In this document: positions 1 through 19,901 of the stretch, piece by piece | Numbering within the stretch: the stretch's first letter is position 1 | How the letters are laid out: each line of letters begins with the position of its first letter | From: Acidobacteriota bacterium | GTDB taxonomy: Bacteria; Acidobacteriota; Vicinamibacteria; Vicinamibacterales; JAKQTR01 | Length of the DNA: 56,873 nt | Assembly: GCA_026393755.1 (NCBI GenBank) | Contig: JAPKZO010000038.1 | Coordinates: 1-56,873, forward strand | Reading direction: 5' to 3' | The notes under the pieces: model-generated | Database searches by the model: none | The model's input: only the letters and a program-made list of their open reading frames with translations | Told to the model about the DNA's origin: nothing | Position numbers and translations under genes: made by a program

Positions 1-1
1 G

Positions 2-3390: not shown

Positions 3391-3551
3391 AGTCTCTTCC
3401 CCCGCAAGTCCGGTTTGCCCGCACGCGGTTACTGAAATGGATCGATCTGACACTACGGCCGCCGAACCGGCGGTGTCATAGAGTATCCTGCATTCTTCGG
3501 CTTGCGACGCCGTAGATCACATTGGACACTCCCGCCGGGCGTGAAACCGGG

Positions 3552-3577
3552 TATACTTTCGAACGAACGTTCGAACG
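3552..3577 (+). promoter_or_regulatory. Putative promoter element and TetR operator
   Basis: A -10-like TATACT (3552-3557) is followed at once by a palindrome: perfect core CGAACGTTCG at 3564-3573, with outer CG pairs at 3560-3561 and 3576-3577. It lies 9 bp before the ATG of the TetR-type regulator. TetR proteins typically bind such palindromes over their own promoter, so autorepression of the regulator and the downstream redox operon is the natural inference. No good -35 box was found at standard spacing. Confidence 0.5.
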
Positions 3578-3585
3578 GGTGCCCC

Positions 3586-4224
3586 ATGCCACGTAACAAG
3601 ACACTGAGACAGCAACGGACCCCGAGCTTCGACGCCAAGCTGCTCACCCTCCTGAGCGTGGCGGCGCGGGTGTTTGCCGCAGAAGGCTACGACAAGACGT
3701 CCATGCGGCGGATCGCCGCGGAAGCCGGAATGAGCCTGGCCGGCATCTATCACTACTGCGCCAGCAAGCAGGAACTCCTCTACGACATCCAGTTCCACGC
3801 CTTCGACTCGTTGCTCCGCGGCCTCCGTGAATGCGCCGAGAACGTCGCCGACCCGCGCGAGCGCCTGAGGGCGGCGGTCGGCAGCCACGTCCGTCATTTC
3901 GGCGACAACATGGATGCGCTCAAGGTGTGCGCCCGCGAACTGCAGGCGCTCGAGGGCAAGGCTTACCGCGACGTCCACGGATTGCGCCGCGCCTACTTCG
4001 ACGCCATGCACGACATCGTCAAGCAGCTTCGGCCGAGGACCAGGTCCCGCCGTCACTCCTGGCTCGCCACGGCCAACCTGTTCGGGATGATCAACTGGTT
4101 CTACCAATGGTACGACGCCGGGCAAGCCAGCGCGGGCCTCGACCAGCTTGCTGACCACCAGGTGGCGCTCTTTCTTGACGGGTACGCCGCTCCCACGCGC
4201 CGGGCCAAGCGAGGACACGCATGA
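3586..4224 (+). CDS. TetR/AcrR-family transcriptional regulator
   Basis: 212 residues from the ATG at 3586 (a longer in-frame ORF from 3502 would run through the operator). Residues about 15-65 form the TetR helix-turn-helix: LLSVAARVFAAEGYDKTSM, IAAEAGMSLAGIYHYC, SKQELLYDI. The C-terminal ligand domain is of the type that often binds acyl-CoAs or aromatics, but the ligand cannot be read from sequence. Its stop overlaps the start of the BamB-like gene (ATGA at 4221-4224), so regulator and enzyme genes are translationally coupled. It probably controls the redox operon through the palindrome upstream of its own start. Confidence 0.9.
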   Translation: MPRNKTLRQQRTPSFDAKLLTLLSVAARVFAAEGYDKTSMRRIAAEAGMSLAGIYHYCASKQELLYDIQFHAFDSLLRGLRECAENVADPRERLRAAVGSHVRHFGDNMDALKVCARELQALEGKAYRDVHGLRRAYFDAMHDIVKQLRPRTRSRRHSWLATANLFGMINWFYQWYDAGQASAGLDQLADHQVALFLDGYAAPTRRAKRGHA

Positions 4225-6245
4225 GGTACGCCGAAACCGGTTTCAACCTGGAGGTGGACCTGACCCGCGGCAGTATCGAGCGGGTCGCCACCGACCCCCG
4301 CGACACCGGGTTTCTCCTCGGGGGCTTGGGCACCAACGCGCGGCTGATGTGGGACCGCGTGCCTCCCGAGGTTGAACCCTTCTCCGCCGAGAACCTGCTC
4401 GTGTTCGGCACGGGCCTGCTGGCAGGGACGCCGGCGCCCGGCTGCAATCGCACCATCGTCTCAGCTATCTCTCCGCAGACGAGGCTGTTCGCCTTCTCGA
4501 TCATGGGCGGGTTCTGGGGACCTGAGTTGAAGCACGCGGGGTACGACAAGGTCGTCATCCGCGGCAAGTCCCCCGAGATGGTCTATCTCTGGATCAACGA
4601 CGACAAGGTGGAACTCCGGGACGCAACGCACTTCCGGGGGCTCGGGACGCTGGAGACCGCGGAGCTCATCCGGCAGGAGCTGCACGAGCCGATGGCCCAG
4701 GTGGCCTCGATCGGCCTGGCCGGCGAGAACCGGGTCTTCTTCGCCTCCATCGAGCAGGGCCGGTCGAGCGCCAGCCGACAGGGCCTCGGTGCCGTCATGG
4801 GAGACAAGAACCTCAAGGCGATCGCCGTACGCGGCAGAAAGGATATCAACATCGCCAGGCCGGCGACGTTCATCAGACACTGCAATGACGCGCTGAAGTA
4901 CATCGAAGTTCGCGACAGGAATCCGATCCCGGGCGTCATGCCGATCCTGGCCGGGCTCGGCTCGCCGCAGGAGATGCGCGAGAACGATGAGCAGTGGCAC
5001 ACCGAGAACTTCATGTGGGGCAATGCCCGCCACCGCCGCAAGGGGTTCTGGACCGACCAGGTTCACGAGAAGTGGACGAGCACCATGGAGACGATGAGGA
5101 CGCGTCTGCTGAGCTGCCACAACTGTCCGCTGAAGTGCGGCGCGGCGATCTCGGTCGATACCCGGATCTGCTCGTACATGATGAAGTGCTTCTCGAAGCT
5201 CACGTACACCATGGCGGCGATGTCCGACCTGGACTTCGGCCTCAAGATCGCCCAGAAGGCGACCGAGCACGGCGTCGACGCCTTTTCGGCGCCGCAGACC
5301 TTGGCATTCGCCATCGAGCTCTACGAGGCCGGCATTCTGACCGACGCGGACTTCCCCGGATGGCCTGCCGATCCGGAGGGCCGGTTCTACTGGCTCCTTG
5401 ACCACATCGTGCGCCGCGAGGGAATCGGAGACGTGCTGGCCGACGGCACGTACTGGGCTGCCGAGCGAATCGGCAAGGGCGCGCAGGCGTTCGCCCACAA
5501 CAACATCAAGAAGCACGAGCAGCTGCCGCTCAAGCTGGGGATGCTCAATCCCATCTACTTCCTGATGTACTCGACCGGCGAGAAGATCAACATCACCCAG
5601 ATCGAAGGGAACTTCCCCCAGACGCCCTTCCCGACGATGGAGGAGCGCGAGGCCTTCGTCAAGGATTGGGAGCACGTCCCCGACGAGCGGTTCAAGCAGT
5701 GGTTCCTCGACTGGGAGTTGCGCGGCGAGAAGTCGATTCCCCACTATCCGCCCGTCGATGCGACCTCCGAGATCGTGCACTGGCAGGAGATGATGCACTA
5801 CATTGACGACAGCGTCGGGGTGTGCGCCGGGCTGTCATCGTTCCCGCTCAAGCCGCCGTACCATATCCACAACTGGCCGTCGATCATCTCGGCCGGGGCC
5901 GGCCTCGATCTGGACGAGGCTGGCCTCAAGCACGTGATCCGGCGGACCCGTACGCTGGTCCGGGCCATCAATATCAGCCGCGGCCTGCGCCGCACGGATG
6001 AGAAGCCGCCTGATGACCACTGGAAGCACCGGCTCCCTGAACTCGAGACGAAGCTTCTGGATGCCTACTACAAGTTCAAGGGCTGGACGAGCGACGGGAT
6101 TCCGACGCGCGCGACGCTTCACGAGCTTGGCCTCGATGACGTCGCCGGCGAGTTTCTCCGGCGGGGGATCCTGAAGGAGGAGGACGAGGAGGACGCCGCG
6201 CCCACCACGGTACCGAGCCCCGCGAGCGCGGGAGGCACGCCATGA
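4221..6245 (+). CDS. bamB: BamB-like aldehyde:ferredoxin oxidoreductase-family tungsten enzyme (class II benzoyl-CoA reductase catalytic subunit type)
   Basis: 674 residues. N-terminal AOR pterin domain (about 1-205) and C-terminal AOR domains with the [4Fe-4S] ligands C299-x2-C302-x3-C306 and a fourth Cys at C535 (DDSVGVC). Position matches to BamB of Geobacter, as I recall its structure, are striking: E251, E257, H260 and a Cys at 323 (one off from the reported tungsten ligand C322). Residue 255, a His in that enzyme, is Asn here. BamB binds a tungsten bis-pterin and reduces the aromatic ring of benzoyl-CoA without ATP. The neighbours are BamC-, BamD-, BamE- and BamF-like genes. No benzoate-activation or ring-hydrolysis genes are in the window, so another CoA ester or an aldehyde remains possible. 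Confidence 0.8.
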   Translation: MRYAETGFNLEVDLTRGSIERVATDPRDTGFLLGGLGTNARLMWDRVPPEVEPFSAENLLVFGTGLLAGTPAPGCNRTIVSAISPQTRLFAFSIMGGFWGPELKHAGYDKVVIRGKSPEMVYLWINDDKVELRDATHFRGLGTLETAELIRQELHEPMAQVASIGLAGENRVFFASIEQGRSSASRQGLGAVMGDKNLKAIAVRGRKDINIARPATFIRHCNDALKYIEVRDRNPIPGVMPILAGLGSPQEMRENDEQWHTENFMWGNARHRRKGFWTDQVHEKWTSTMETMRTRLLSCHNCPLKCGAAISVDTRICSYMMKCFSKLTYTMAAMSDLDFGLKIAQKATEHGVDAFSAPQTLAFAIELYEAGILTDADFPGWPADPEGRFYWLLDHIVRREGIGDVLADGTYWAAERIGKGAQAFAHNNIKKHEQLPLKLGMLNPIYFLMYSTGEKINITQIEGNFPQTPFPTMEEREAFVKDWEHVPDERFKQWFLDWELRGEKSIPHYPPVDATSEIVHWQEMMHYIDDSVGVCAGLSSFPLKPPYHIHNWPSIISAGAGLDLDEAGLKHVIRRTRTLVRAINISRGLRRTDEKPPDDHWKHRLPELETKLLDAYYKFKGWTSDGIPTRATLHELGLDDVAGEFLRRGILKEEDEEDAAPTTVPSPASAGGTP

Positions 6246-6784
6246 AACGCTCGAACGCCAGGACCGTCAAGACGATCACGATCGACATCGCCAAGTGCAA
6301 CGGCTGCCGGGCGTGCGAGGTGATTTGCGCCGCGTTTCACGCGAAGCCGGTGTACAGCAGCACCAATCCCGCGAGGTCGCGCATCCGGGTGATCCGCGAT
6401 CCGGTCGCGGACATCTACCTGCCAGTGTACGCCGGCGAGTACACCGCCGCCGAGTGCGCCGGCCGCGACAAGTACATCATCAACGACAGGGAATACGAGG
6501 AGTGCGCCTTCTGCCGGGCGTCGTGCCCGTCCCGTGACTTCTTCAAGGAGCCGGATTCGGACCTGCCGCTCAAGTGCGACATGTGCGAATCGGATCCGAC
6601 CGTCACCGAGCCGCTGTGCGTGCAGTGGTGCCTCTCGCATGCCCTGGTCTACGAAGAGCGGGAAGTGGCCGTCGAGAAGCTGGCCGCGGTCGACGACGTC
6701 GACATCGGTCTGAAAGCGCTGGCCGACGTGCACGGCTGGCCGAAGGTGATGGACGCCGCCGGCCGCATGGGCGGGAACAAGTAG
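6242..6784 (+). CDS. bamC: BamC-like polyferredoxin subunit
   Basis: 180 residues; the start overlaps the stop of the BamB-like gene (ATGA). Twelve cysteines in ferredoxin spacing: C19-x2-C22-x2-C25-x3-C29, then C72, C88, C91, C95, C112, C115, C126 and C130. That is enough for three [4Fe-4S] clusters, as in BamC, which forms a tight electron-transfer complex with BamB. No signal peptide, so it is cytoplasmic. It is homologous to the electron-transfer subunits paired with AOR and DMSO-reductase enzymes; context makes BamC the best match. Confidence 0.8.
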   Translation: MKRSNARTVKTITIDIAKCNGCRACEVICAAFHAKPVYSSTNPARSRIRVIRDPVADIYLPVYAGEYTAAECAGRDKYIINDREYEECAFCRASCPSRDFFKEPDSDLPLKCDMCESDPTVTEPLCVQWCLSHALVYEEREVAVEKLAAVDDVDIGLKALADVHGWPKVMDAAGRMGGNK

Positions 6785-6811
6785 AAGCCGCCCCACCGGG
6801 TCGCCCGCGGC

Positions 6812-6882
6812 GGGCGCAATGAATTGCGCCCCTGCGGGACATCCCGATGGATTGCCGTGTAGGGGCGCGATTTATCGCGCCC
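6812..6882. repeat. Two related palindromic extragenic repeats inside the operon
   Basis: Two short perfect hairpins lie between the BamC- and BamD-like genes. The first is GGGCGCAAT-GA-ATTGCGCCC (6812-6831), the second GGGCGCGAT-TT-ATCGCGCCC (6863-6882), each with a 9-bp stem. They are variants of one unit and resemble the GGGGCG...CGCCCC palindromes dispersed in many genomes. They fill most of the 118-nt gap and may affect mRNA processing or stability between cistrons. Confidence 0.6.
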
Positions 6883-6902
6883 GAACCAACGAGGTACGCA
6901 GT

Positions 6903-8072
6903 TTGGAGACCGTCGCCCCCTTTGCGGAGATCGTCGCGGCCGTCAGCCAGGCGGGCGGGCAGTCCAGCCGGCTGTGCTATCAGTGCGGCAAGTGTGACGT
7001 CGTCTGCCCGTGGAACCGGGTGCGGAACTTCAGCATCCGCAAGGTCGTCCGCGAGGCCAGCCTCGGCCTCTCCGAAATCGGCCTCGACGACATCTGGCGC
7101 TGCACGACGTGTGGCACCTGCCCGTCGCAGTGCCCTCGCGGAGTCGGGCAGATCGAGGTCAGCGTCGCCGTCCGTCGCGTCGCCACGAGCTACGGCGAAT
7201 TCGCCGGCTCGGCGCGAAAGGTCCGCGCCGCCGGGGCGAGTCTCGCGAGCGTTGGCAATCCCCTGAGCCAGGACAGGAGCAGGCGTGACGCCTGGGCGAA
7301 CGGCCTGGGCGTGAAGCCGTTTGCCGAAGGGATGGAACTGCTGTTCTTCGTCGGCTGCTATGGCAGCTTCGACCCGCGCGTGCGCAAGGTGTCGGTGGCC
7401 ATCGCGAAGATCCTCCAGCGCGCCGGCGTGGACTTCGGGATTCTCGGCAACGACGAGAACTGCTGCGGCGAGAGCATCCGCAAGGCCGGCAACGAGGAGG
7501 TCTTCCGCGCGCTGGCGAAGGCGAACATCAAGGCCTTCATCGATCGCGGGGTGAAGCGCATCCTCGTCGCCTCGCCTCACTGCTATCACGCGTTCAAGCG
7601 TGACTACGCCGAGTTCATGGTGCACTTCGAGGTGGTCCACCTCTCCGAGCTCCTGGCGGAGTTAGTGGCCGATGGGCGGCTGAAGCTCGTCCGCCCGCTC
7701 GGCAGGAGGGTCACCTACCACGACCCGTGCTACCTCGGGCGCCACAACGGGATCTACGACCAGCCCCGCACCGTGCTCGGCAAGGTGCCCGACCTCGAAC
7801 TGGTCGAGATGCCAGACCACCATCAAAACAGCCTGTGCTGCGGTGGCGGCGGCGGCAGGATCTGGATGGACACGCCCAAGGGCGAGCGGTTCGCCGACCT
7901 GAGAATCGCCCAGGCGAGAAGTACCGGCGCCAGCATACTGGTCACCTCCTGTCCTTACTGCATCAGCAACTTCGAAGACAGCCGCCTGGGCATCGCGGGT
8001 GGCGACGCGCTGGAGATCAAAGACCTCGCCGAGGTCGTCGCCGATTCGCTCGACGGAGTCGAGGCGTCATGA
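6903..8072 (+). CDS. bamD: BamD-like / HdrD-type iron-sulfur protein
   Basis: 389 residues from a TTG at 6903, chosen because GAGGT sits 7 nt upstream; the upstream ATG at 6819 lies inside a palindromic repeat and its codons translate only that repeat. Two [4Fe-4S] motifs (CYQCGKCDVVCP and CTTCGTCPSQCP) are followed by two CCG domains: ENCCGE...SPHCYH and DPCYLGR...SLCCGGGGG...SCPYC. This is the HdrD/GlpC/BamD architecture; CCG domains can bind non-cubane [4Fe-4S] clusters. It likely passes electrons between the HdrA-like subunit and the BamBC core. The end overlaps the next gene (ATGA, 8069-8072). Confidence 0.82.
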   Translation: METVAPFAEIVAAVSQAGGQSSRLCYQCGKCDVVCPWNRVRNFSIRKVVREASLGLSEIGLDDIWRCTTCGTCPSQCPRGVGQIEVSVAVRRVATSYGEFAGSARKVRAAGASLASVGNPLSQDRSRRDAWANGLGVKPFAEGMELLFFVGCYGSFDPRVRKVSVAIAKILQRAGVDFGILGNDENCCGESIRKAGNEEVFRALAKANIKAFIDRGVKRILVASPHCYHAFKRDYAEFMVHFEVVHLSELLAELVADGRLKLVRPLGRRVTYHDPCYLGRHNGIYDQPRTVLGKVPDLELVEMPDHHQNSLCCGGGGGRIWMDTPKGERFADLRIAQARSTGASILVTSCPYCISNFEDSRLGIAGGDALEIKDLAEVVADSLDGVEAS

Positions 8073-11000
8073 CAGCCGCGGCCAACGGCTTCGGCGACGT
8101 GATGGTCCTGGGCGCCGGGATCAGCGGCATCCAGGCCGCGCTCGATCTCGCCACGGCGGGCTACCGAGTGTTTCTGGTCGAGAAGGCGCCGACCGTCGGC
8201 GGCAAGATGGCGCAGTTCGACAAGACCTTCCCGACCAACGACTGCTCGATGTGCATCGAGTCGCCGAAGTTCATCGAGTGCGATCGGCATCCCAACATCG
8301 AGATCCTGACTCACACCGAGGTAAAGCACGTCGCCGGCGAGGCGGGCAGCTTCACGGTCACGCTCACCAGGAAGCCGCGCTACGTCAACGAGGACCTGTG
8401 CACCGGCTGCACTACCTGCAACGAGTACTGCCCGATCCCGATCCCCGATCCGTTCAACCAGGAGATGTCCGCCACCAAGGCGATCCACATCTACTTCGCC
8501 CAGGCCGTGCCGCTCGTGCCCTACATCGACGAGCGCTGCCGCTACCTCGACGATGGCAAGTGCACGATCTGCGAGAGCGTCTGCAAGAACCACGCGATCG
8601 ACCTCCACCAGCAGCCCAGAGAAGAGGTCATCAAGGTGGGGGCGATCGTTCTCAGTCCGGGCTACGGCGCCTTCGATCCGCGGCCGCGCGGCGACTACGG
8701 ATACGGGACAATTCAGAACGTCGTGACCAGCCTCGACTTCGAGCGGCTGCTGTGCGCCACGGGACCGCACGAGGGCGAGATCCTGCGGCCGTCCGACAAG
8801 AAGCACCCGCACAAGATCGCCTGGATCCACTGTGTCGGCTCGCGCCAGGTGCAGGCGGGCGGCCACAGCTACTGCTCGGCGGTGTGCTGCACCTACGTGC
8901 AGAAACAGGTCATCCTGGCCAAGGATCACGATGCGGACGCCGAGGCGGTGATCTTCCACAACGACATCCGCTCCTACGGGAAGGACTTCGAGCGCTTCTA
9001 CGAGCGGGCGAAGAACCTTCCCGGCGTGCGCTTCGAGCGCAGCTACGTCTCGATCGGCCGCGAGATCCCCGAGACGAACAACGTCACCATCCGCTACTCC
9101 AGCGGCGGAACGGTAAAGGAGGAAGAGTTCGACCTGGTCGTGCTCGGCATCGGCCTCGAGCCGCCTGCCGACGCGAAGCTGCTCGCGCAGCAGTTCGGCG
9201 TCGAGTTGAACGCGCACGGCTTCTGCAAGACCGATCCCGGCAATCCCATCGCGACCACCAGGCCCGGCGTCTTCGTCTCCGGGGCCTTCACGGGCCCGAT
9301 GGACATCCCCGAGGCGGTCGTGACCGCCAGCGGCGCCGGCGCCATGTCGAGCGCGCTCCTCCACTCGCGCCGCGGCAAGCTGGCGCGCGACCGCGTCTAC
9401 CCGGTGGAGCGCGACGTCTCGGAAGAAGAGGTCAGGGTGGGCGTCTTCGCCTGCCACTGCGGCGCCAACATCGGACGCGTCGTCAACGTGCCGTCGCTGG
9501 TTGAGTACGCCAGGGGGCTCGACCACGTGGCTCACGCCGAAGAGGGCCTGTTCGTCTGCTCCACCGACGCGGCGGCCAGGATCTCGACGACCATCCGGGA
9601 GAAGGGGCTGAATCGCGTGGTGGTCGCGGCCTGCACGCCGCGCACGCACGAGCCGCTGTTCCGCGACACGCTGCGCGAGGGCGGGATCAACCAGTATTTC
9701 TTCGACATGGCCAACATCCGGGAGCACTGCTCCTGGGTGCACTCCAAGGAGAAGGAAGAGGCCACCCGGAAGGCCAAGGACATCGTCCGCATGTCCGTGG
9801 CGCGCGCCGTCCAGCTGGAGCCCCTGCAGGAATCACAGCTCCCGGTCACCCACGTCGCACTTGTGGTCGGCGGGGGCGTCGCCGGGATGACGTGCGCGCT
9901 GAGCCTCGCCGACCAGGGCTTCGAGGTCGAGCTGGTGGAGAAGAACACGGAACTCGGCGGGATGGCGCGGAGGATCCGGACGACTCTCGAAGGGCTCGAC
10001 GTGCAAGCGTACGTGCGCGACCTGGTGCGCAAGGTCTATCGGCATCCGCTCGTTCACGTGTCGCACGCCGCGACCATCAACGACACCTCGGGCTACGTCG
10101 GCAACTTCGTCACCACGGTGAGCTCCGAGGGGCGGACCAGGACCATCCGCCACGGCGTCATCATCCTCGCCACCGGGGCCGACGAGTACCGGCCGACCGA
10201 GCACCTCTACGGACAAGACCTCCGCGTGCTGACACAGCTCGAGCTGGAGGAGCGCCTCGCCAGCGGGAATCTCGACGGCGCCCGCGCCGTGGCCATGATC
10301 CAGTGTGTCGGTTGCCGGACCGAAGACCGCAACTACTGCGCCCGCGTGTGCTGCAGTCAGGCTGTCAAGAACGCGCTCCGCCTGAAGCAGTTGCGGCCAG
10401 ACCTCGAGATCTACATCCTCTTCCGCGACATGCGCACGTACGGACTGATGGAGGACAGCTACCGCGAGGCGGCTGACAACGGCGTGCGGTTCGTGCGCTT
10501 CGAGCCGGCGGACGGCCCTGTGGTCGAGCCCGCCGAAGACGAGGAGGGGCGATCTGTTCTGCGGGTCACTGTTCCCGATCCGATCCTCGGCCAGAAGCTG
10601 GCTCTCGACGTGGACCTGGTCGTGCTGTCGGCGGCGGTCGTGCCGTCGGCCGGCAGCCATGATGCCGCGCGCCTGTTCAAGGTCGCGATGAATCCCGATG
10701 GCTTCTTCCAGGAGGCGCACGTCAAGCTGCGTCCGGTCGACGCCGCGGGCGACGGCGTGTTCATCTGCGGTGCGGCGCACTACCCCAAGCACCTGTCGGA
10801 AACCATTGCGCAGGCGCTCGGCGCGGCCGGTCGGGCCGGGTGTGTCCTGTCGCAGGACTCGGTCACCGCGTCAGGCGCCATCTGCAATGTCGAGGAGCAT
10901 GAGTGCGTCGCCTGCGGGGCCTGCATCGCGGCCTGCCGCTACGGCGCCATCAGTTGGAACGAGACTCTCGAGGGCAACAAGGCCGTGGTGAACCCTGCCC

Positions 11001-11125
11001 TGTGCAAGGGCGATGGGCTGTGCTGCTCCAAGTGCCCGACCGACGCCATCGTGCTCCAGCACTTCACCAACGAGGCGATTGAGCACCAGATCGATGCGGC
11101 GTTGTCAGAGGAGTGGAGCTCATGA
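8069..11125 (+). CDS. bamE: BamE-like long HdrA flavoprotein with tandem FAD/Fe-S units
   Basis: 1018 residues from the ATG at 8069, which overlaps the upstream stop. The protein is two HdrA-like units in a row. Unit 1 begins with the FAD motif VLGAGISGIQAA, then PTNDCSMC and a ferredoxin site CTGCTTCNEYC. The middle carries the HdrA N-terminal motif VGVFACHCGANIG and VAACTPRTHEP. Unit 2 has its own FAD motif VVGGGVAGMTCA, CVGCRTEDRNYC, and a C-terminal pair of ferredoxin sites (CVACGACIAACRYG, CKGDGLCCSKCP). HdrA flavins are known bifurcation sites, so this subunit is the likely place where electrons are split. BamE of Geobacter has this layout. Confidence 0.82.
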   Translation: MTAAANGFGDVMVLGAGISGIQAALDLATAGYRVFLVEKAPTVGGKMAQFDKTFPTNDCSMCIESPKFIECDRHPNIEILTHTEVKHVAGEAGSFTVTLTRKPRYVNEDLCTGCTTCNEYCPIPIPDPFNQEMSATKAIHIYFAQAVPLVPYIDERCRYLDDGKCTICESVCKNHAIDLHQQPREEVIKVGAIVLSPGYGAFDPRPRGDYGYGTIQNVVTSLDFERLLCATGPHEGEILRPSDKKHPHKIAWIHCVGSRQVQAGGHSYCSAVCCTYVQKQVILAKDHDADAEAVIFHNDIRSYGKDFERFYERAKNLPGVRFERSYVSIGREIPETNNVTIRYSSGGTVKEEEFDLVVLGIGLEPPADAKLLAQQFGVELNAHGFCKTDPGNPIATTRPGVFVSGAFTGPMDIPEAVVTASGAGAMSSALLHSRRGKLARDRVYPVERDVSEEEVRVGVFACHCGANIGRVVNVPSLVEYARGLDHVAHAEEGLFVCSTDAAARISTTIREKGLNRVVVAACTPRTHEPLFRDTLREGGINQYFFDMANIREHCSWVHSKEKEEATRKAKDIVRMSVARAVQLEPLQESQLPVTHVALVVGGGVAGMTCALSLADQGFEVELVEKNTELGGMARRIRTTLEGLDVQAYVRDLVRKVYRHPLVHVSHAATINDTSGYVGNFVTTVSSEGRTRTIRHGVIILATGADEYRPTEHLYGQDLRVLTQLELEERLASGNLDGARAVAMIQCVGCRTEDRNYCARVCCSQAVKNALRLKQLRPDLEIYILFRDMRTYGLMEDSYREAADNGVRFVRFEPADGPVVEPAEDEEGRSVLRVTVPDPILGQKLALDVDLVVLSAAVVPSAGSHDAARLFKVAMNPDGFFQEAHVKLRPVDAAGDGVFICGAAHYPKHLSETIAQALGAAGRAGCVLSQDSVTASGAICNVEEHECVACGACIAACRYGAISWNETLEGNKAVVNPALCKGDGLCCSKCPTDAIVLQHFTNEAIEHQIDAALSEEWSS

Positions 11126-11205
11126 CCCGGACTGACGCCGTGCAGACCAGAAGAAGGGCGGGCGCATCGGCGGACGAGCCGTACGGAGCAGTCCGCGCTC
11201 GATGG

Positions 11206-11326
11206 CCGGAACCCGACAAGCGTGCGGAGGGTTCCCCGGCGCCGCGCGTAGCGGTCAAGCGGGCGCGGGTAGCGCAAGCCGGCGGGGAGATCCGGAACCC
11301 GAGGCAAAGCGAGGAGGGTTCCCGGA
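11206..11326. repeat. Pair of imperfect hairpin repeats before the BamF-like gene
   Basis: Two copies of an inverted-repeat unit lie in the 279-nt gap before the selenoprotein gene: CCGGAACCC...GGGTTCCCC at 11206-11239, and TCCGGAACCC...GGGTTCCCGGA at 11291-11326. The inner part (aagcgtgcggag / aaagcgaggag) differs. They look like dispersed extragenic palindromes. An ORF through this stretch (11122-11424) starts with an ATGA overlap, but its composition is that of the repeats and I do not call it. Confidence 0.55.
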
Positions 11327-11404
11327 CTGCGGAGTCCGGCTCGGGAGCGGATGCGCCGGCTCCCCCGACGACTCCGAATCGTGGACTCTCGTGTAGGAGG
11401 ATCG

Positions 11405-13636
11405 ATGGCGAGCTTCGAGCATAAGCCGAGGATCATCGCGTTCCTCTGCCACTGGTGAGCGTACTCGGCATCAGACCTGTCTGGCGTGTCCAGACAAAGC
11501 TACGCTCCCGAGGTCCGCATCATCCGCGTGATGTGCACGGGCAGGGTCGATCTGTCCCACATCATCCGCGCGTACGCCAGAGGCGCGGACGGGGTGATCA
11601 TCGGGGGCTGCTGGCCTGGCGAGTGCCACTATGTGACCGAGGGCAACTACGACGCCTTGTGCAACGTGCACCTGGGCAAGAAGCTGCTCGCCGGCATTGG
11701 CCTCGAGCCCGAGCGGCTCAGGATCGAATGGATCGCGGCGTCAGAGGGTGCCCGCTTCGCCGAAATCATGACCGACTTCTCGCGGCAAATGAGAGAGGTT
11801 GGACCTCTGGGACGCGCCGCGGGCATCGACCGGGCGGCCATGACGCTCAGGCTGGACGCCGTGACGAAGCTCATCCCGTACATCAAGCTTGTACAGCGGG
11901 AAAAGCTGCTCCCTCCGACGCGCAACGAAGACGAGATCAATGCGTTCTTCGCCAGTGACGAAGCCGCGATGGTGTTTGACGGGCTGATTGCCGACAAGCT
12001 GCTGCCCGGCCCCGCGTTTACGCAGCCCCTCGCGTCGCCCTGCCAATTGGCCTGTCCGATTGGCACGCAGGCGTGGCGTTACGTCGCGCACATCGAGCGC
12101 GGGGAGTACGAGCAGGCCTATGTGGCCATCCGCGAGGCGAATCCTTTTCCCTCGGTCTGCGCGCGCGTCTGCGATCACCGATGCGAGAAGAGCTGCCGGC
12201 TCGCGGTTGCGGGAGAAGCGCCCGTCGCGATTCGCACGCTCAAGCGGTTCATCACGGATAACACGGACCCCAGTGTGTACAAACCAGTTCGCGCGGAAGT
12301 TGCGAAGGCGGAAAAGGTGGCCATCGTCGGCGCCGGCCCCGCGGGGCTCACGGCCGCGCACCTCTTGTCGCTGCGCGGCTACAAGGTCACGGTCTTCGAC
12401 GCGAGCGACAAGCCGGGAGGCATGCTGCGACTTGGCATCCCGGCGTACCGATTGCCGCGGGAAGTGATCGACCGGGAAATCGCGGCCCTGCTGGATGACA
12501 ACATCACCCTGAAGATGGGCGTGTCGCTTGGTCCGTCAGGACCAAGTGCTGAGCGAGCGTCTTCAGCGAATCGCCTCGAAGGAGAGCGCGCCCAGACTGG
12601 CGAGTCGAAGCACTCGGCCAACCAAGTCACGATCGACTCGCTGTTCAACGACGGTTTCGACGCGGTGTTCCTCGCGCTCGGGTCGATGAAGAGCCTGCCG
12701 TTGCGCGTCGATGGGGAGCAGGCGCGCGGCGTCTATCCTTCGCTTCAATTCCTGAGCGAGTTCAACCTGCGGGGCGTGAGTCTGGCGAAGGGCAAAGTGG
12801 GTGTGATTGGCGGAGGCAACTCGGCGATCGACGCCGCCCGCATCGCGCTGCGACAGGAGGGCGTGGAGCAGGTCACGATCATCTATCGACGGACCCGGGA
12901 GGAGATGCCGGCGTTTTCGGACGAGATCGACGCCGCCATCGACGAAGGCGCCATCCTCAAGTGCCTGCTGTCGCCGGTGAGCGTTCAGACCGACGGTGGA
13001 TCCATCGTCGGCCTGACGTGCGTGAAGAATGAGCTCGGCCCGTGCGACAGCAGCGGACGCCGGCGGCCGGTGCCCATCGCCGGTTCAGAGCACGTGCTGC
13101 CGCTCGACACGCTGATCGTGGCCGTGGGCGAGAAACCCGAGGTCGAGCGCATCCGCTCGGCGACGTCCGAGGGAGTCGACATCAAGACGACTGATTGGGG
13201 GTCGATTGCGGCCGACGCGCGCACGCTGGCGACCAGCCGCAAGGGATTGTTTGCGGGTGGAGACGTCGTGACGGGCCCCAACACCGTCATCGACGCGATC
13301 GCCGCCGGTAAGAAGGCCGCCGTGATGATCGATCGCTACCTGTCGGGTGAGGAGCAACGGCAACCCGGCGACGCTGCCCGCTCGGGCCGGTACGTCGATC
13401 CTGCGCCAGCGAGACAGGGCTCGGTCGGCGCCGGGCGCGCTGAACGCCTCGCCATACCTCATGTGCTCGCCGACGAGCGACGAGCCAGCTTTGCCGAAGT
13501 GGAACAGGTCGTCACCGAAGCGATCGCCCGCCGCGAGGCCGCTCGTTGCCTGCGCTGCGACCTGGACTTCGACGGAGTCGTTTCGTCCGCGGCCGCCAGT
13601 GACAGTGGCGGGCGGCGCAACGCGGCGCTGAACTAG
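11405..13636 (+). CDS. bamF: BamF-like MvhD domain fused to GltD-type NAD(P)H flavoprotein; predicted selenoprotein (in-frame TGA)
   Basis: 743 residues if TGA 11456-11458 is read as selenocysteine (U18). From the ATG at 11405 the frame reads ...FLCHW-U-AYSASDLSGVSR; MvhD proteins have CxWC(S/A)YAGADLAGVSR here, so U takes the place of a [2Fe-2S] ligand Cys. The other MvhD cysteines, C44, C69 and C74, follow in the same frame. Residues about 150-740 are a glutamate-synthase small-subunit-like module: Fe-S region CQLACPIG...CARVCDHRCEKSC, FAD motif VGAGPAGLTAA (about 307), NAD(P) motif VIGGGNSAIDAA (about 467) and a C-terminal CLRCDLDF. A low-complexity insertion sits at about 375-405. Starting at the GTG at 11486 would delete the first cluster ligands. 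BamF of Geobacter has been described as Sec-containing; the GltD fusion could take over the NADH role of BamGHI. Confidence 0.82.
11456..11495 (+). promoter_or_regulatory. UGA Sec codon with bacterial SECIS-like hairpin
   Basis: The TGA at 11456-11458 is followed by a perfect 6-bp hairpin: GTCTGG (11479-11484), loop CGTGT, CCAGAC (11490-11495). The loop starts 26 nt after the TGA and has a G at its second position. This fits what is known of bacterial SECIS elements: a small apical loop with an early G, placed roughly 16-37 nt downstream of UGA within the coding region. SelB would have to recognise it; selABCD and tRNA-Sec are not in this window. Confidence 0.65.
12527..12546. repeat. Palindrome at the start of an in-frame insertion in the GltD domain
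   Basis: Perfect hairpin CTTGGTCC-GTCA-GGACCAAG inside the coding sequence. It opens a stretch of about 30 codons rich in Ser, Ala, Glu and Arg that has no counterpart in usual GltD proteins, which run directly from the LG residues into VTIDSLF. The reading frame is kept. It looks like a small repeat that inserted into the gene. Confidence 0.45.
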
Positions 13637-13711
13637 AATGACGGCACATTGCATGGGCGTGACGTGCCAGGCATGCGGCCTGGCGCCTGTCGCATCGAAG
13701 TGGGGTGCCCG

Positions 13712-16522
13712 ATGAACCTGAAGCGAATCGCACTCATCCTCGTGTTGGCGTGGACCGGCCTGCCGGCCGCCGCGCAGCAGCCTGCGCCCGCGACGGCGCC
13801 CACCCGAACACAGGCGGCGCTCGAGGACGTCATCAATGCGCTGCCCATGCGCAACATCGGACCATTTCGGACCGGCGCCTGGGTCACGGCGATCGACGTC
13901 CCCACGCGGCCCGCGCACGAACATCTCTACACGATCTACGCCGCCAGCCGCAGCGGCGGCGTGTGGAAGACGGTCAACGGGGGCATCACGTGGAACAACA
14001 TCACTGACAGCGTCGGCCTCGAGGCTACCGGCGCGGTCGCGCTCGCGCCATCCGACCCGAACACGGTCTGGGTCGGCGGCGGCGACCAGGCCAACGCCCG
14101 CAGCTCGATCTCGGGCAAGGGCGTGTTCAAGTCCACCGACGCCGGCAAGACCTGGCAGTCAATGGGGCTCCCCGATTCGCATCACATCGCGCGCATCGTC
14201 ATTCACCCAACCAACCCGGCCATCGTCTATGTCGCAGCCCTCGGCCATCTCTTCTCGACGAACGCCGAGCGCGGCGTCTTCCGGACGTTGGACGGCGGGA
14301 AGACATGGCAGAAGGTGCTCTACATTGACGATGGCGTCGGCGCCGTCGACCTGGTCGTCAACCGCAAGAAGCCGACGCAGCTCTTCGCGGCGATGTACGA
14401 CAAAGACCGGAAGCCGTGGTACATCATCGAAAGCGGGCCGAAAAGCGGCCTCTATCGCACTGATGACGCCGGCGACACATGGACGCCACTCGGTGGCGGG
14501 CTTCCGACTGGCAAGATCGGGCGCATCGGCATCGACATCTATCAGAAGAACCCGCTGATTCTGTACGCGCTGGTCGAGAACCAGAATCCTCGGACCGCCC
14601 CGCCGCCGGCTCGCGGGGGCCGCGCGGGCGCGGCTGGATTCGGAGCCGCAGCCACGGCAGGTGCGGGCGCGAACGGCGGAACCGGACAAGTAACCGCCCT
14701 CGCGCCATTAGCGCAGGGCATCATCGGCAACGAGTTGTACCGCACCGATGACGGCGGCAAGACGTGGCACAAGACGTCTGACGTCAACGTCGCCGGTGGC
14801 AAAGCCCCCTACTCGTTCAATCAGATCAAGATCAATCCGCACAACGACCAGGTCGTCATCGTCACCAGCGACAGCATGTACGTCACCCGCGACGGCGGCC
14901 GGACGTGGACCGGGGAGCGGTTCTTCGGACGCGCGTTTGGCGACTTCCGGTGCATGTGGTGGGACGAACAGGACGAGCAGCGCATCATTCTCGGCAGCGA
15001 CGGCGGCGTGCAGTTGTCAAACGACGGCGGCCGGACCAGCGACTACGCACCCAACCTGCTGGTTGGCGAGGTCTACGCGGTTGGCGTGGACATGGACGAT
15101 CCGTACAACGTGTACGGAGGCTTGCAGGATCACGATTCGTGGAAGGGTCCGAGCAACGGCAGGATGGGAAGCATCTCGCTCGACGACTGGGTCACCGTCG
15201 GCCCCGGCGACGGCATGTACAACATCGTCGATCCGACCGACAGCCGCTGGGTCTACAACACGCGCGAACTGAACGCGATGGGCCGGATGGACCAGAAGAC
15301 CGGCATCCGCACCAACATCAGTCCGGGTCGAGCGGGCTCGGGCACTCCGCCGCTGCGTTATAACTGGATCGCGCCGATCGCGATGTCGCCGTTTAACCCG
15401 CGCGTCATCTATGCCGGCTCGCAGTTTCTGCACCGCTCGCTCGACCGCGGCGATCACTGGGAGACGATCAGCCCCGATCTGACAACCAACGATCCCACGA
15501 AGATCAGCAACAACGTCCCGTTCTGCACGCTCACGTCGATTTCCGAGTCGCCGATTGCGGCCGGCCTCATCTGGGTCGGGACCGACGACGGCAGGGTACA
15601 CGTCACGAGGAACCACGGCGGGACGTGGGCGGATCTGACGCCGGCGCTGACCGCCGCCGGCGCGCCAGCCGATCGCTGGGTCAGCCGCGTTCTTGCATCA
15701 CCGCACGACGCGGGCACGGCGTTTGTCGCGAAGAACGGCTTCCGCAATGACGACTTCATGCCGTACCTCTACAAGACGACCGACTATGGACACACCTGGA
15801 CGGCGATTTCGGCCAATCTCCCCACCGGCGCCGTGAACGTCATCGTCCAGGATCGCAAGAACAGGAACCTGCTGTTCGTCGGCACCGACATCGGCGTGTT
15901 CGTCTCGATAGACGGCGCGGCCACCTGGATTAGGTTCACGTCGAACCTGCCGACGGTCGCGGTGCACGACCTGCTCATTCATCCGCGCGAACACGACCTC
16001 GTGCTGGGCACCTACGGCCGCGGATTCTGGACGGGAGACATCTCGCCGCTGCAGGATCTGACGCCGGCCACACTCGCGCAAAGCGTGCATCTGTTCGACA
16101 TCGAGCCCAGGGCACACTACGGCTTTGGCAGCCAGGGCATGAACTATCGCCTCTTCGGCGACCGGTACATCGAAGTGCCGAACGAGCCCGACGCGATGAC
16201 GATCAACTTCTGGGCGAAAGAAGCGTCAACCGCGCCGGCCACGATCACGATCACAGACATCTCGGGCAGGCTGGTCGCACAGCTCCCGCCGACTCCGGTG
16301 CGTGCCGGCCTCAATCGCTTGCGGTGGGGCATGAATGAGACGGCGGCGGCGCCCGCCGGTGGCGCACCCGGTCGAGGAGCTCGCGCGGGCGGCGGTGGCG
16401 GTCGTGGTGGTGGCGGCGCTCTTGTGCCGCCGGGCGACTACCTCGTCACGCTCGAGATCGGGGCCGACAAGCAGACGACAATCGGCAAGGTGCGGGAACG
16501 AATCTGGCCGGAATCACGATAG
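13712..16522 (+). CDS. Secreted sortilin/BNR-repeat beta-propeller protein
   Basis: 936 residues. Start at the ATG at 13712, giving the signal peptide MNLKRIALILVLAWTGLPAAAQQ; the frame extends further upstream but without a leader. Many Asp-box/BNR units are visible (STDAGKTWQSMG, LDGGKTWQKVL, DDAGDTWTPLG, DDGGKTWHKT, RDGGRTWTG, TTDYGHTWTA), forming the VPS10/sortilin-type propeller often annotated as a glycosyl hydrolase-like protein. Two Gly/Ala-rich linkers interrupt it (about nt 14590-14700 and 16350-16430). The C-terminal part has a FlgD-like beta fold (PATITITDISGRLVAQLP). Such proteins are exported and abundant in acidobacteria; no enzymatic residues could be assigned. Confidence 0.85.
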   Translation: MNLKRIALILVLAWTGLPAAAQQPAPATAPTRTQAALEDVINALPMRNIGPFRTGAWVTAIDVPTRPAHEHLYTIYAASRSGGVWKTVNGGITWNNITDSVGLEATGAVALAPSDPNTVWVGGGDQANARSSISGKGVFKSTDAGKTWQSMGLPDSHHIARIVIHPTNPAIVYVAALGHLFSTNAERGVFRTLDGGKTWQKVLYIDDGVGAVDLVVNRKKPTQLFAAMYDKDRKPWYIIESGPKSGLYRTDDAGDTWTPLGGGLPTGKIGRIGIDIYQKNPLILYALVENQNPRTAPPPARGGRAGAAGFGAAATAGAGANGGTGQVTALAPLAQGIIGNELYRTDDGGKTWHKTSDVNVAGGKAPYSFNQIKINPHNDQVVIVTSDSMYVTRDGGRTWTGERFFGRAFGDFRCMWWDEQDEQRIILGSDGGVQLSNDGGRTSDYAPNLLVGEVYAVGVDMDDPYNVYGGLQDHDSWKGPSNGRMGSISLDDWVTVGPGDGMYNIVDPTDSRWVYNTRELNAMGRMDQKTGIRTNISPGRAGSGTPPLRYNWIAPIAMSPFNPRVIYAGSQFLHRSLDRGDHWETISPDLTTNDPTKISNNVPFCTLTSISESPIAAGLIWVGTDDGRVHVTRNHGGTWADLTPALTAAGAPADRWVSRVLASPHDAGTAFVAKNGFRNDDFMPYLYKTTDYGHTWTAISANLPTGAVNVIVQDRKNRNLLFVGTDIGVFVSIDGAATWIRFTSNLPTVAVHDLLIHPREHDLVLGTYGRGFWTGDISPLQDLTPATLAQSVHLFDIEPRAHYGFGSQGMNYRLFGDRYIEVPNEPDAMTINFWAKEASTAPATITITDISGRLVAQLPPTPVRAGLNRLRWGMNETAAAPAGGAPGRGARAGGGGGRGGGGALVPPGDYLVTLEIGADKQTTIGKVRERIWPESR

Positions 16523-16606
16523 CCAGGTGGGACGGTCCCTCTCCGCAGACTGGATGCGCGCCAATGCGCGAAGAAGGCATAACATGCCACCGACGTCTGG
16601 GGTCAA

Positions 16607-17458
16607 ATGCCCATGCTTATGAAGACGCCACTTGCGACCACTGTGATAACTCTTGCGCTGATCGTCACGACGACGCAGCAACCAGCCGGCCGGCAGGCGC
16701 CTGGCATCGAGCCTCCCGGCACGTTTTCGATCCTTGGTTATGACCCAGAGACGCAGGAGATCGGCGCCGCTGTCCAGTCGAGGGTGTTTTCTGTCGGCAA
16801 CGGCGTCCTCTGGGCCGAGGCTGGTGTGGGCGCGGTCGCGACGCAGGCGATCGTGGACGTCGGGTACGGGCCGAAGGGACTCGCACTCCTGCGCGCAGGG
16901 ACTACACCGAAGGCCATCATCACCGCGGTTCTCGACAGCGATCCCGACCCCGGCTATGGCCGGCAGGCCTGGCCGAAAGCCGGCCGCCAGTTTGCCGTGA
17001 TCAACGCGAAGGGCGAAGTCGCGGCGTACTCCGGGCCTGGCGCGCCTGCAGAGTTCGGAGACGCACAGGGGAAGTTCTGCACCGCGCAAGGCAACACGCT
17101 CGGGCGCCCGGACGGGAAGTGGCCGCCGGCTGACGGCATCAAACCCAGCAACGTGCCGGCCGCGATGGTCGCGGGATTCGAGAACAGCGAGAAGGATGCG
17201 AACGGCAACCGCCGTCACATCTCATTGCGACTGGTCGCCGCGCTCGAAGCGGGACAGGCGGCTGGCGGTGACAATCGCGGCCAGCAATCCGCCGCGCTCA
17301 TCGTCGTTAAGAAAGACGCCGGCGTGTGGTTGCACAACGACGTCGTGCTGCGCTTGCAGGTGGACGACAACCCCGAACCGATCAAGGAACTGCGGCGACT
17401 GGTCGAGAAGTCACCTGCAGGCCGGGGTGCGCGCGGGCGCGGCGGTTCGCAGCGCTAG
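16607..17458 (+). CDS. Secreted DUF1028-family protein
   Basis: 283 residues. GGGG lies 4 nt before the ATG at 16607; ATGs at 16613 and 16619 are alternatives. A short signal peptide (MKTPLATTVITLALIV) precedes the DUF1028 core: TFSILGYDPETQEIGAAVQS, a conserved run around VLWAEAGVGAVATQA, and the Gln-Gly region AQGNTL. DUF1028 proteins have an Ntn-hydrolase-like fold and are often annotated as putative peptidoglycan-binding proteins; activity is not established. It follows the BNR protein by 84 nt on the same strand and may be co-transcribed. Confidence 0.85.
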   Translation: MPMLMKTPLATTVITLALIVTTTQQPAGRQAPGIEPPGTFSILGYDPETQEIGAAVQSRVFSVGNGVLWAEAGVGAVATQAIVDVGYGPKGLALLRAGTTPKAIITAVLDSDPDPGYGRQAWPKAGRQFAVINAKGEVAAYSGPGAPAEFGDAQGKFCTAQGNTLGRPDGKWPPADGIKPSNVPAAMVAGFENSEKDANGNRRHISLRLVAALEAGQAAGGDNRGQQSAALIVVKKDAGVWLHNDVVLRLQVDDNPEPIKELRRLVEKSPAGRGARGRGGSQR

Positions 17459-17558
17459 CGGCTGGCGCTTGGCCACTCGTAGCCTGACGGCAAGACGCGC
17501 TTCAAGGCAGGCCGAGGGCCCAGAGCCGTGAGCGGTGCGCCAACCACAAGGGCGTCAG

Positions 17559-17757
17559 CTAGCGTGGGAATCCAGCCTGGTCCGCTTCGCCATCAGCGAG
17601 GATGCTGTTCATGAACGCCGAGCATTCGTCTCGCAGCACGGGCACGTCGCGGTCCGCTATCGCCCACACAACGGTGTCGTCGACGGTCGGATACTCGTGG
17701 GTGAGTTGATTTCGGAAGTCGACGATGCGTCGAGCGCGCGTGATGGCAGCGAAGGGC
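17559..17757 (-). pseudogene. Remnant of a HepT-like (DUF86) toxin gene
   Basis: The minus strand encodes about 60 residues beginning LPFAAITRARRIVDFRNQLTHEY and ending at a stop at 17559. The segment contains the HepT RNase signature R-x4-H (RNQLTH) followed by EYPTVDDTVVW. The N-terminal half is missing: the frame runs directly into the reverse complement of the GltD remnant at about 17757. HepT toxins normally pair with MntA nucleotidyltransferases; none is present. Confidence 0.6.
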
Positions 17758-18018
17758 AGAGTAGGTGTGATTGGCGGAGGCAACTCGGCGGTCGACGCTG
17801 CCCGGTCGGAAAGGTACGTGGATCCTGCTCCGGCACGACAGGGCTCGGTCGGCGCCGGGCGCACCCAACGCCTCGCCATACCTCATGTGCTCGCCGACGA
17901 GCGACGAGCCGACTTGGTCGAGGTGGAGCAGGTCGTCACGGAGGAAGCCGCCCGCCGCGAGGCCGGCCGCTGCCTGCGTTGTGACCTGGATTTCGACGGC
18001 TGCGCCCAACGGAACTGA
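17749..18018 (+). pseudogene. Internally deleted copy of the BamF-GltD fusion gene
   Basis: The frame reads KGRVGVIGGGNSAVDAAR and then jumps to SERYVDPAPARQGSVGAGR...RCLRCDLDFDG. Both parts match the gene at 11405-13636 (nt about 12786-12840 and 13369-13590), with the 540 nt between removed in frame. The junction is the 12-bp motif CGACGC(C/T)GCCCG, which occurs in the intact gene at 12829 and again at 13369. No FAD or Fe-S part remains, so it is not functional. Confidence 0.8.
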
Positions 18019-18029
18019 AGATTCCACTG

Positions 18030-18245
18030 GGTCTCCTCACTGATGGTTCGCGTCGGCTTTGGCCGCGGGGAGTTATCCGCCCCGCACGGCACCAACTGCC
18101 CTTTTCTGGACCTGGACGACGTCCGGGCCGGGCCGGCGTCAGTTTCTGACAGCACCGCCATCGCCTGTTCAACCCGATCCAATTCCGCTCGAAGCTCATC
18201 GCGACGCGCGGTCACTGCCTCCACAACGTTGGTCATTTGTTTCAT
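18030..18245 (-). pseudogene. Truncated small coiled-coil protein gene
   Basis: The first residues, MKQMTNVVEAVTARRDELRAELDRVEQAMAVL, followed by a basic linker (ARTSSRSRKGQ), match the common small proteins that start with a coiled coil and end in a basic AAQRARWA-type helix. Here the frame continues into the GltD remnant after about 70 residues and the usual C-terminus is absent. Read as a broken gene cut by the same rearrangement that left the GltD fragment. Confidence 0.4.
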
Positions 18246-18541
18246 GATGGGTTACTGGCGATCAGTCACCGCTGACAGACGATAGGAAGCATGAGCGACG
18301 CCCAAAGCGTCCCCCCGGGCGAGATGAAGATAAGGCCCCTTATCTGACGCTCCCAGGGTACGCGCCGACTCTGACACAGGGCTGATAATCGCGCGGGGAA
18401 TCGAGATTGCACGCGGGAATTCGGCTGGGACGTAGCGTGATCACGGCGAGCCGCTCCAGCAACTCGAGCGCGACGATGTCGCGACAAGCGCCCGTACGTT
18501 GGTGCGCGCGTTGGCGCCCCCGGACGTGGCGGGAGTCGTAA

Positions 18542-18673
18542 CCTTCGCCAAACCGGGACATCATTGCTCTGGCCGATCGAGAAGCGCGGGCCATCGTCTC
18601 CAAGGGTGCAGACTTCGTCAACTCGTACCTGATCACGGATCGGCTTCGCCGGTTGACGTCTGCGGGCCGTTGA
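18542..18673 (+). pseudogene. C-terminal remnant of a DUF5615 PIN-like toxin
   Basis: After a TAA at 18539 the + strand reads NRDIIALADREARAIVSKGADFVNSY and then RLRRLTSAGR with a stop at 18671. This is the C-terminal core of DUF5615 Mut7-C/PIN-like proteins (D-x-x-I-x-x-x-A-x-x-E-x-R-x-I-V-x-K-D-x-D-F). The N-terminal catalytic part is not found in any frame upstream. The stretch 18246-18541 holds nothing else I recognise. Confidence 0.5.
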
Positions 18674-18698
18674 CACATTTACGTATTTGTGCCAATGT
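18670..18698 (+). promoter_or_regulatory. Promoter and palindromic operator of the RHH/MazF-like module
   Basis: A consensus -35 box TTGACA (18670-18675) is followed by the symmetric sequence ACA-TT-TACGTA-TT-TGT (18675-18690), an imperfect palindrome centred on TACGTA. The antitoxin ATG is at 18717. A ribbon-helix-helix antitoxin would be expected to bind such a site and repress its own operon. The -10 box is weak (CAATGT near 18693). Confidence 0.5.
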
Positions 18699-18716
18699 GG
18701 GTCGAGGGTGAAACAC

Positions 18717-18977
18717 ATGCCGACAGCGAACCAGCCGCGCCGAGCGCGACTCAGCATTGACGTCCCACGCGAAGCGCGGCGTCGCATTCACATCGCAGCG
18801 GCACGACGCGATCAATCCATTCGGGACTACGTCTGGCAGGCCGTCGAGGCGCGATTGAGGCACGATCTTGCCGACGAGTTGTCGCTCGCCGATCTGGTCG
18901 CCCTCAACGAAGGCGCTGATCCGGTGTTGGCAGATCTGTGGAACAACCCGAAGGACGCCGCGTATGACGAGCTTTAG
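18717..18977 (+). CDS. Ribbon-helix-helix (CopG-like) antitoxin
   Basis: 86 residues from the ATG at 18717, with GAGGGTG upstream; the longer frame from 18687 would run through the promoter. The N-terminus, RARLSIDVPREARRRIHIAAARRDQSIRDYVWQAVE, is a ribbon-helix-helix DNA-binding fold; the acidic C-terminus (LNEGADPVLADLWNNPKD) is the expected toxin-binding tail. The stop overlaps the toxin start by 14 nt. Likely function: neutralise the toxin and repress the operon. Confidence 0.8.
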   Translation: MPTANQPRRARLSIDVPREARRRIHIAAARRDQSIRDYVWQAVEARLRHDLADELSLADLVALNEGADPVLADLWNNPKDAAYDEL

Positions 18978-19302: not shown

Positions 19303-19463
19303 GCCGGGTCCCGATCATTGCGTGTGATCTGCAATCCTCCGCCGCGAGGCGGGGCGGCCGGCCGGGACCCTCGACGCGCGCGTCGCAGGCAAGCCCGTGC
19401 CCAGCAAGCCGTGACAGCCCGCTTGCTGTCGATTGGAGGTGAGCTGGACCAGGGAGTTCTGCG

Positions 19464-19841: not shown

Positions 19842-19864
19842 TCGTACGGTCTGGGCCTGGTAGT

Positions 19865-19901
19865 CTCGCCGCTCGGAAACTGATCCACTCGCCGCTTGGA
19901 A
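19865..19901. repeat. Direct repeats resembling an IS21-type element end
   Basis: Two 14-bp direct repeats, CTCGCCGCTCGGAA (19865-19878) and CTCGCCGCTTGGAA (19888-19901), 23 bp apart. On the other strand they read TTCCnAGCGGCGAG separated by TGGATCAGT, the kind of multiple terminal repeat seen at IS21-family ends. No transposase remains nearby. The rest of the gap 19842-20126 holds no convincing gene; a minus-strand fragment (LTDRQVDVLDAIASVAFPPL) may be a broken one. Confidence 0.35.

Follow-up and report, generated by a model that had tools for sequence, protein, structure and literature searches.

The gene described here, within a window of 56,873 nucleotides (contig JAPKZO010000038.1 of the Acidobacteriota assembly GCA_026393755.1), is a bamF-gltD fusion predicted to encode a 743-residue selenoprotein. 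We read the product as the selenocysteine (Sec)-containing BamF of a class II benzoyl-CoA reductase, in which the fused GltD module takes the place of BamGHI as the port for pyridine nucleotides, and we assign a probability of about 0.7 to this reading as a whole. Enzyme complexes of this class, whose reduction of benzoyl-CoA is ATP-independent, serve to break down aromatic rings in the absence of oxygen. The coordinates of the operon and of the parts of the fusion gene are collected in Table 1.

Table 1. Features of the bam operon and of the bamF-gltD gene, in window positions
Feature	Coordinates	Strand	Basis
TetR/FadR-like regulator, head of the cluster	3502..4224	+	Pfam TetR_N (7e-15), TetR_C_24 (6.3e-19)
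BamB-like catalytic subunit, tungsten aldehyde-ferredoxin-oxidoreductase family	4221..6245	+	phmmer against PDB 4z3w_A
BamC-like polyferredoxin	6242..6784	+	233 bits against 4z3w_E
BamD-like HdrBC subunit (two CCG stretches, 4Fe-4S)	6819..8072	+	orthologous operons (L085-L089)
BamE-like HdrA, two flavin domains	8069..11125	+	domain searches, operons of relatives
bamF-gltD fusion gene, predicted 743-residue selenoprotein	11405..13636	+	frame, Pfam, genome searches
BamF part: MvhD/FlpD and helical extension to residue ~206	11405..12022	+	Pfam, alignment, model
Predicted Sec codon TGA (codon 18)	11456..11458	+	TGA in 64/87 loci, Cys in 23
SECIS-type hairpin, 7-bp stem, loop CGUGU	11478..11496	+	pairing and Sec/Cys comparison
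GltD module: FAD and NADP(H) Rossmann domains, eight conserved Cys	12023..13633	+	Pfam, alignment
Interspersed repeat, 29 extra in-frame residues within GltD	12530..12635	+	repeat search, alignment

Reading frame and predicted selenocysteine codon

The frame opened by ATG 11405 runs to a stop ending at 13636, and its sole internal TGA (codon 18) stands in the context CHW-U-AYSASDLSGVSR. An earlier note on this DNA had described this frame with its single TGA, and the same frame was obtained when it was read again. The note had also expected a standard gene caller to begin at 11486; under the standard code the open reading frame indeed extends from GTG 11486 to 13636 and encodes 716 amino acids. 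The motif AGGAGG lies immediately upstream of ATG 11405, and no Shine-Dalgarno-like motif precedes GTG 11486. For random codons with the base composition of the window, a run of 719 stop-free codons has a chance of about 1e-8. In the 743-residue protein, Pfam recognizes FlpD/MvhD at residues 10-133 (E 2.6e-45), Fer4_20 at 211-287 and Pyr_redox_2 at 304-635, and these domains, together with the BamF and GltD alignments, agree with the fusion of an MvhD/BamF domain to GltD that had been proposed.

The Sec position was compared across 87 loci, which include the window, the six relatives that ranked next when residues 1-206 were searched against 396 genomes of the phylum, and, from a named genome collection, the best 80 of at least 563 confirmed relatives. 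Alignment with Sec and Cys homologues had been suggested in the earlier note as a check, and it returned only these two states at residue 18: TGA in 64 loci, Cys in 23, and any other codon in none of the 87. One of the loci (L158) reads CQS-U at the Sec site. With TGA present in so many loci, gene callers may drop the first BamF cluster ligands in many genomes.

Bacterial SECIS elements have a stem-loop just 3' of the TGA, with a G among the first loop bases. The window has such a stem just 3' of its TGA, with a G in the loop. The hairpin reported earlier thus exists, although its size and distance (6 bp, 20 nt after the TGA) needed correction: seven bases at 11478-11484 pair with 11490-11496 around a 5-nt loop (11485-11489), 19 nt past the TGA. 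Its 4-bp core, CUGG/CCAG, is intact in 64 of 65 rows with TGA and in none of the 24 rows with Cys (two loci, L168 and L109, contribute two rows each). The lone TGA row with three of the four pairs (L140) could form the stem in a shifted register, while in L060 a compensatory change from a T-A to a G-C pair retains it. Likewise, AGA or AGG serves as the Arg codon within the 3' arm in 62 of the 64 TGA rows and in no Cys row (0/24); the Fisher value of 1.4e-19 for this association, calculated with L158 left out, is not a true probability because the rows are related. Folding energy was rejected as proof of a SECIS element, being mostly ordinary against shuffled sequences (z of -2.08 for 31 nt, -0.49 for 42 nt and -0.55 for 60 nt), and the mean energy was no better for Sec loci (-10.0 kcal/mol, 63 loci) than for Cys loci (-12.3 kcal/mol, 10 loci). 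It is the position-specific comparison of Sec with Cys relatives that argues for more than a chance hairpin. An Rfam scan of positions 1-20000 gave four sub-threshold matches, which we took as chance.

The earlier note had further proposed searching the genome for the Sec machinery, and all four components were found: selB (337 bits with neighbours, cut-off 242), selA (526 bits, above its cut-off), selD (above its cut-off) and a tRNA-Sec with the anticodon TCA. The selD gene (L050, C28:380259-381191) itself contains one in-frame TGA. Taken together, the machinery, the alternation of TGA with Cys and the stem that accompanies TGA strongly support the prediction of Sec at codon 18. A 2004 paper reportedly described selenocysteine proteins in anaerobic benzoate metabolism. 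The MvhD/VhuD proteins (PF02662, CxxU) are a known prokaryotic selenoprotein family (PMC13188914), and for Desulfococcus multivorans PMC5109826 lists the Sec-containing Bam protein as BamE, not BamF.

The benzoyl-CoA reductase operon

The regulator and the genes for BamB, BamC, BamD and BamE all lie upstream of bamF in one direction, and the start of bamE at ATG 8069 overlaps the stop of bamD. The window BamB matches Geobacter BamB (4z3w_A) with 1106 bits, residues 1-652 aligning to 1-651, while the runner-up chain scores 202 bits; it keeps Cys322, which is named as the tungsten ligand in PMC12096430. BamB and BamC have their best matches in the solved Geobacter pair, and the HdrBC-like BamD, the HdrA-like BamE and the MvhD-like BamF are all present in the operon. 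A non-His residue at BamB position 255 was dropped as a special feature, since relatives have His, Val, Thr and others there. The gap between bamE and bamF contains, at 11204-11330, two hairpin-like units of the form GGAACCCG...GGAGGGTTCC recognized by eye.

The order bamBCDEF was also observed in five other genomes of the phylum, with protein identities of 49-71%; in these operons the terminal Sec-BamF is unfused and 255-259 residues long; the sixth phylum relative (G104) has BamE and a Cys-BamF on a short contig. Elsewhere in the window's own genome, the genes dch (296 bits, cut-off 292), had (475, cut-off 339) and oah (555, cut-off 464) stand side by side and exceed their curated cut-offs. 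About 3 kb from them, on the other strand, is a gene for a protein resembling the alpha subunit of 4-hydroxybenzoyl-CoA reductase, with 885 bits against a cut-off of 995. On the basis of the Bam genes, the matches to the solved BamB and BamC and the presence of dch, oah and had, we conclude that the window operon is one encoding a class II (tungsten) benzoyl-CoA reductase, with its activity predicted from sequence. The Hdr-like complex of the earlier note is broadly retained, its MvhD-like subunit being more exactly the BamF of such an operon.

The fused GltD module and its distribution

Sequence of the BamF family extends to residue ~200 and GltD-like sequence begins at 211, which places the fusion point at ~207. 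Eight Cys of the GltD part (213, 217, 252, 256, 260, 264, 715 and 718) are invariant in seven aligned modules, and they would provide the full ligand set for two [4Fe-4S] clusters. A supposed loss of two cluster ligands was dropped, as the RCLRC pair sits at the C-terminus; an extra upstream Cys pair is present in NuoF-GltD forms. The first nucleotide-binding motif is GAGPAG; the second Rossmann domain has GGGNSA, accompanied by YRRTREEMPA, and counts as NADP-type under the GxGxxA rule of PMC12054007. Chain C of PDB 8oh5 carries YRRTIDEMPA at the corresponding site; we presume that this chain is StnC, given a length (1172) and a GltD region that fit the description in PMC10482914, where NADPH is bound to the StnC GltD domain in the structure. 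We consider it likely from these motifs that the fused GltD is specific for NADP(H). In the AlphaFold model only the BamF part is confident (pLDDT block means of 74-95 for residues 1-200), while pLDDT for the GltD part is mostly low, with an alignment that held no GltD relatives.

In all seven cases scanned from the 396-genome draw, the closest relatives of the fused GltD are C-terminal parts of NuoF-GltD proteins, one of them from the same genus. Identity to six aligned NuoF-GltD relatives is 56-61%, and a protein of that kind is the probable source of the GltD part. In G001, a genome of the same genus, what looked like a further fusion turned out to be such a NuoF-GltD protein without MvhD.

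The fusion itself was confined to one assembly. Among 162 genomes of the order (E up to 1e-20), only the window's own genome gave a match across the bamF-gltD junction, and among the matches listed for the phylum draw of 396 genomes, none but those in the own genome and in the six relatives extended past residue ~160. No GltD match above 150 bits occurred anywhere in the loci of the best 80 of at least 563 relatives; 79 of these 80 BamFs end before residue 300 and the remaining one (L134) is cut at a contig end. A search of related genomes for the fusion, also suggested earlier, therefore came back empty outside the own assembly. The note had named a separate GltD gene in relatives as a finding that would count against a fusion, and none was found after BamF within the flanks in the six phylum relatives or in the best 80 of at least 563. 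We also inspected 20 loci with long MvhD frames, chosen from the phylum and order searches, for hidden MvhD-GltD fusions, and GltD was in frame with MvhD in none. MvhD stands at the frame end in all of these except L232 (G363:C24:6500-15500), where it starts a 464-residue frame whose 329 further residues gave no match to GltD or to any Bam query. In the accessible parts of the open-access literature, no BamF-GltD fusion was met. Unfused BamF being the rule, the BamF-GltD fusion is a singleton.

The interspersed repeat within GltD belongs to a dispersed family of ~85 bp with conserved ends of about TCAGGACTNAGTGCTGAGCGAGCG ... GCGAGTCGAAGCACT. In the own genome this family gave 44 matches at E up to 10 and 21 at E <=0.034, including the window copy, with which 19 further genomic copies were aligned. 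The 29-residue insertion is present in none of the six aligned GltD relatives and may harm the module. The repeat has a GC3 of 0.60 against 0.82 for the rest of the gene, while both halves of GltD resemble other genes in GC3. In addition, a decayed two-piece remnant of GltD was found at ~17749-17999, about 4 kb downstream (93% identity over 56 nt and 84% over 221 nt).

BamF tails and the putative electron port

Searches of the own genome, a 42-contig draft, with BamH gave only complex I NuoF (49%) and NuoE-like and ferredoxin-like stretches, and BamI gave one weak stretch in another protein (40% over 96 of 203 residues); by these sequence searches we found no BamH- or BamI-type gene in it. We then considered how BamF ends in the best 80 of at least 563 relatives. 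The tails are either short or, in 13 loci (L104, L148, L153, L156, L160, L161, L165, L166, L170, L173, L174, L176 and L177), a dicluster ferredoxin with eight Cys, which Pfam confirms for L104. The short tails appear HTH-like by eye, and L060, the only short-tailed relative scanned, has no second Pfam match. A BamH-like gene was counted when it lay within 3.5 kb downstream on the same strand, and a recount from the end of the BamF frame gave the same result; apparent BamH hits at ferredoxin-tailed BamFs lay on the ferredoxin tail itself and were left out. By this count, among the best 80 of at least 563 relatives, BamH follows in 55 loci and does not in 15, the other 10 lying on contigs that end too early. 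It follows 55 of the 59 short tails and none of the 11 ferredoxin tails (Fisher 6e-10, with the rows being related). In the four short-tailed exceptions, BamH is on the other strand (L111), elsewhere in the locus (L168), or not behind BamF (L117, L146).

These counts indicate that a BamF with a redox tail of its own goes without BamH behind it, and the GltD tail of the window fits this rule as a third case by its sequence. The genes that follow ferredoxin-tailed BamFs have no common partner in the four of 11 loci compared: CoA-transferase and AMP-ligase genes follow in L148, an HlyD-type gene in L156, a second HdrA-like and MvhD pair in L177, and nothing recognized in L170. The Sec-BamF-like protein of a Planctomycetia MAG (L104:156-1031), whose locus shows no other hit above 100 bits to the Bam queries, is 63% identical to the BamF part of the window and has a ferredoxin tail. 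We put even odds on a general formulation, in which the end of BamF would be an exchangeable port carrying a short tail with BamGHI for NADH, a ferredoxin without BamH, or GltD without BamH for NADP(H). The window Sec-BamF-GltD is the only representative of the GltD kind so far and suggests a direct coupling of pyridine nucleotide to the MvhD-like subunit, which would bear on the second electron acceptor of the complex.

Other explanations of the gene can be weighed against this reading. If the TGA were a genuine stop, there would be two products, or the product starting at GTG 11486 would function without the first cluster ligands, and a 716-residue frame is what the standard reading yields; but the complete Sec machinery, the exclusive alternation of TGA with Cys in 87 loci, a full stem that is found with TGA forms and in no Cys form, and the lack of a Shine-Dalgarno motif ahead of 11486 make this highly improbable. 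The assembly could be chimeric, a NuoF-GltD gene having been joined to a normal, unfused BamF, and this would fit a fusion that is seen in one assembly only and whose GltD is most closely related to the C-terminal portions of NuoF-GltD proteins. We regard a chimera as unlikely, however, given that the junction falls at the domain seam where other BamFs switch tail, that the reading frame is unbroken across it, and that the paralogous GltD remnant lies ~4 kb away on the same contig.

Somewhat less improbable, though still doubtful, is that Sec-BamF is real and GltD is a decaying passenger, electrons moving through BamE and BamD with ferredoxin or quinone only. An in-frame repeat of low GC3 inside GltD and the decayed partial copy downstream would be expected of such a passenger, and the ferredoxin-tailed BamF operons without BamH behind suggest that BamGHI is dispensable. 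On the other side, GltD comprises 535 codons without a stop or frameshift, its eight cluster Cys and both nucleotide motifs are unbroken, and the GC3 of both halves matches that of other genes.

Under the reading we prefer, that of a working Sec-BamF-GltD, SelB would read the UGA at codon 18 as Sec, aided by the hairpin 19 nt downstream, and the fused GltD would substitute for the separate NuoEFG-like BamGHI module for NADH, a replacement that we judge likely from the gene content. An electron path would connect NADP(H), by way of FAD and two [4Fe-4S] clusters, with the [2Fe-2S] cluster of BamF and its Sec/Cys ligands and with the flavins of BamE, while BamD, BamC and BamB would bring low-potential electrons to benzoyl-CoA; the cofactor occupancy of the fusion in this scheme is predicted from ligand motifs. 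A 2019 paper is said to have described a one-megadalton Bam complex. Electrons enter the Bam complex from reduced ferredoxin (about -500 mV); part of them go to the tungsten site and benzoyl-CoA (about -622 mV), the rest to an acceptor of higher potential (PMC12096430, PMC11971306). The higher-potential acceptor is given as NAD+ or menaquinone (PMC12096430), and the homologous NAD module is treated as a putative electron outlet (PMC12096430). For the reduction of benzene rings at about -620 mV by the proposed flavin-based bifurcation, the high-potential acceptor was called 'unknown' in 2025 (PMC11971306).

With its NADP(H) module attached straight to BamF, the complex probably has NADP(H) as the pyridine partner at the port. 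Electrons may rather leave through the port to NADP+, with donation from NADPH, the direction that the earlier note had proposed for NAD(P)H, a serious contender. An outlet to NADP+ would have less driving force than one to NAD+ if the NADP pool is more reduced, and by our estimate an NADPH donor would need an acceptor near the potential of menaquinone. A single fused NADP(H) module that seems to replace the NADH module points to a partner that can be tested, makes the complex smaller and locates where the port attaches.

With the Geobacter metallireducens BamBCDEFGHI system, the window shares the order bamBCDEF and a BamB and BamC close to the solved proteins. The MvhD domain is likewise followed by a helical extension, and relatives have either Sec or Cys at the equivalent site. 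In contrast to the short tail of the Geobacter BamF, listed in PMC1924859 as 'hydrogenase, delta subunit; HTH mo', the window BamF carries a GltD module in a genome where BamH and BamI were not found. The Sec-containing MvhD/VhuD proteins (PF02662) have the domain and the CxxU site in common with the window protein, which differs from them in belonging to a benzoyl-CoA reductase operon and in being fused to GltD. The NADPH modules of StnC and NfnB share the YRRT..EMPA motif with the window GltD, which by its sequence is predicted to belong to their fold family. StnC likewise fuses GltD to another electron-transfer part (PMC10482914), but the partner of GltD is BamF in the window, a NuoG-like domain in StnC and a separate subunit in NfnB. 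Type III HdrA likewise gives an Hdr-type complex access to NAD(P)H through an added GltD (PMC12054007); those proteins are archaeal, with GltD inside HdrA and predicted to be NAD-type, whereas the window GltD is on the MvhD-like subunit and NADP-type by the same rule. In the NuoF-GltD proteins of the same phylum, GltD follows the NADH-binding NuoF, while in the window it follows MvhD. One of these proteins, from a genome of the same genus (L029:8037-11165), has NuoE-like and small NuoG-like genes as its flanking neighbours, and a 1675-residue protein encoded upstream resembles, by eye, a fusion of folate and methionine-synthase domains.
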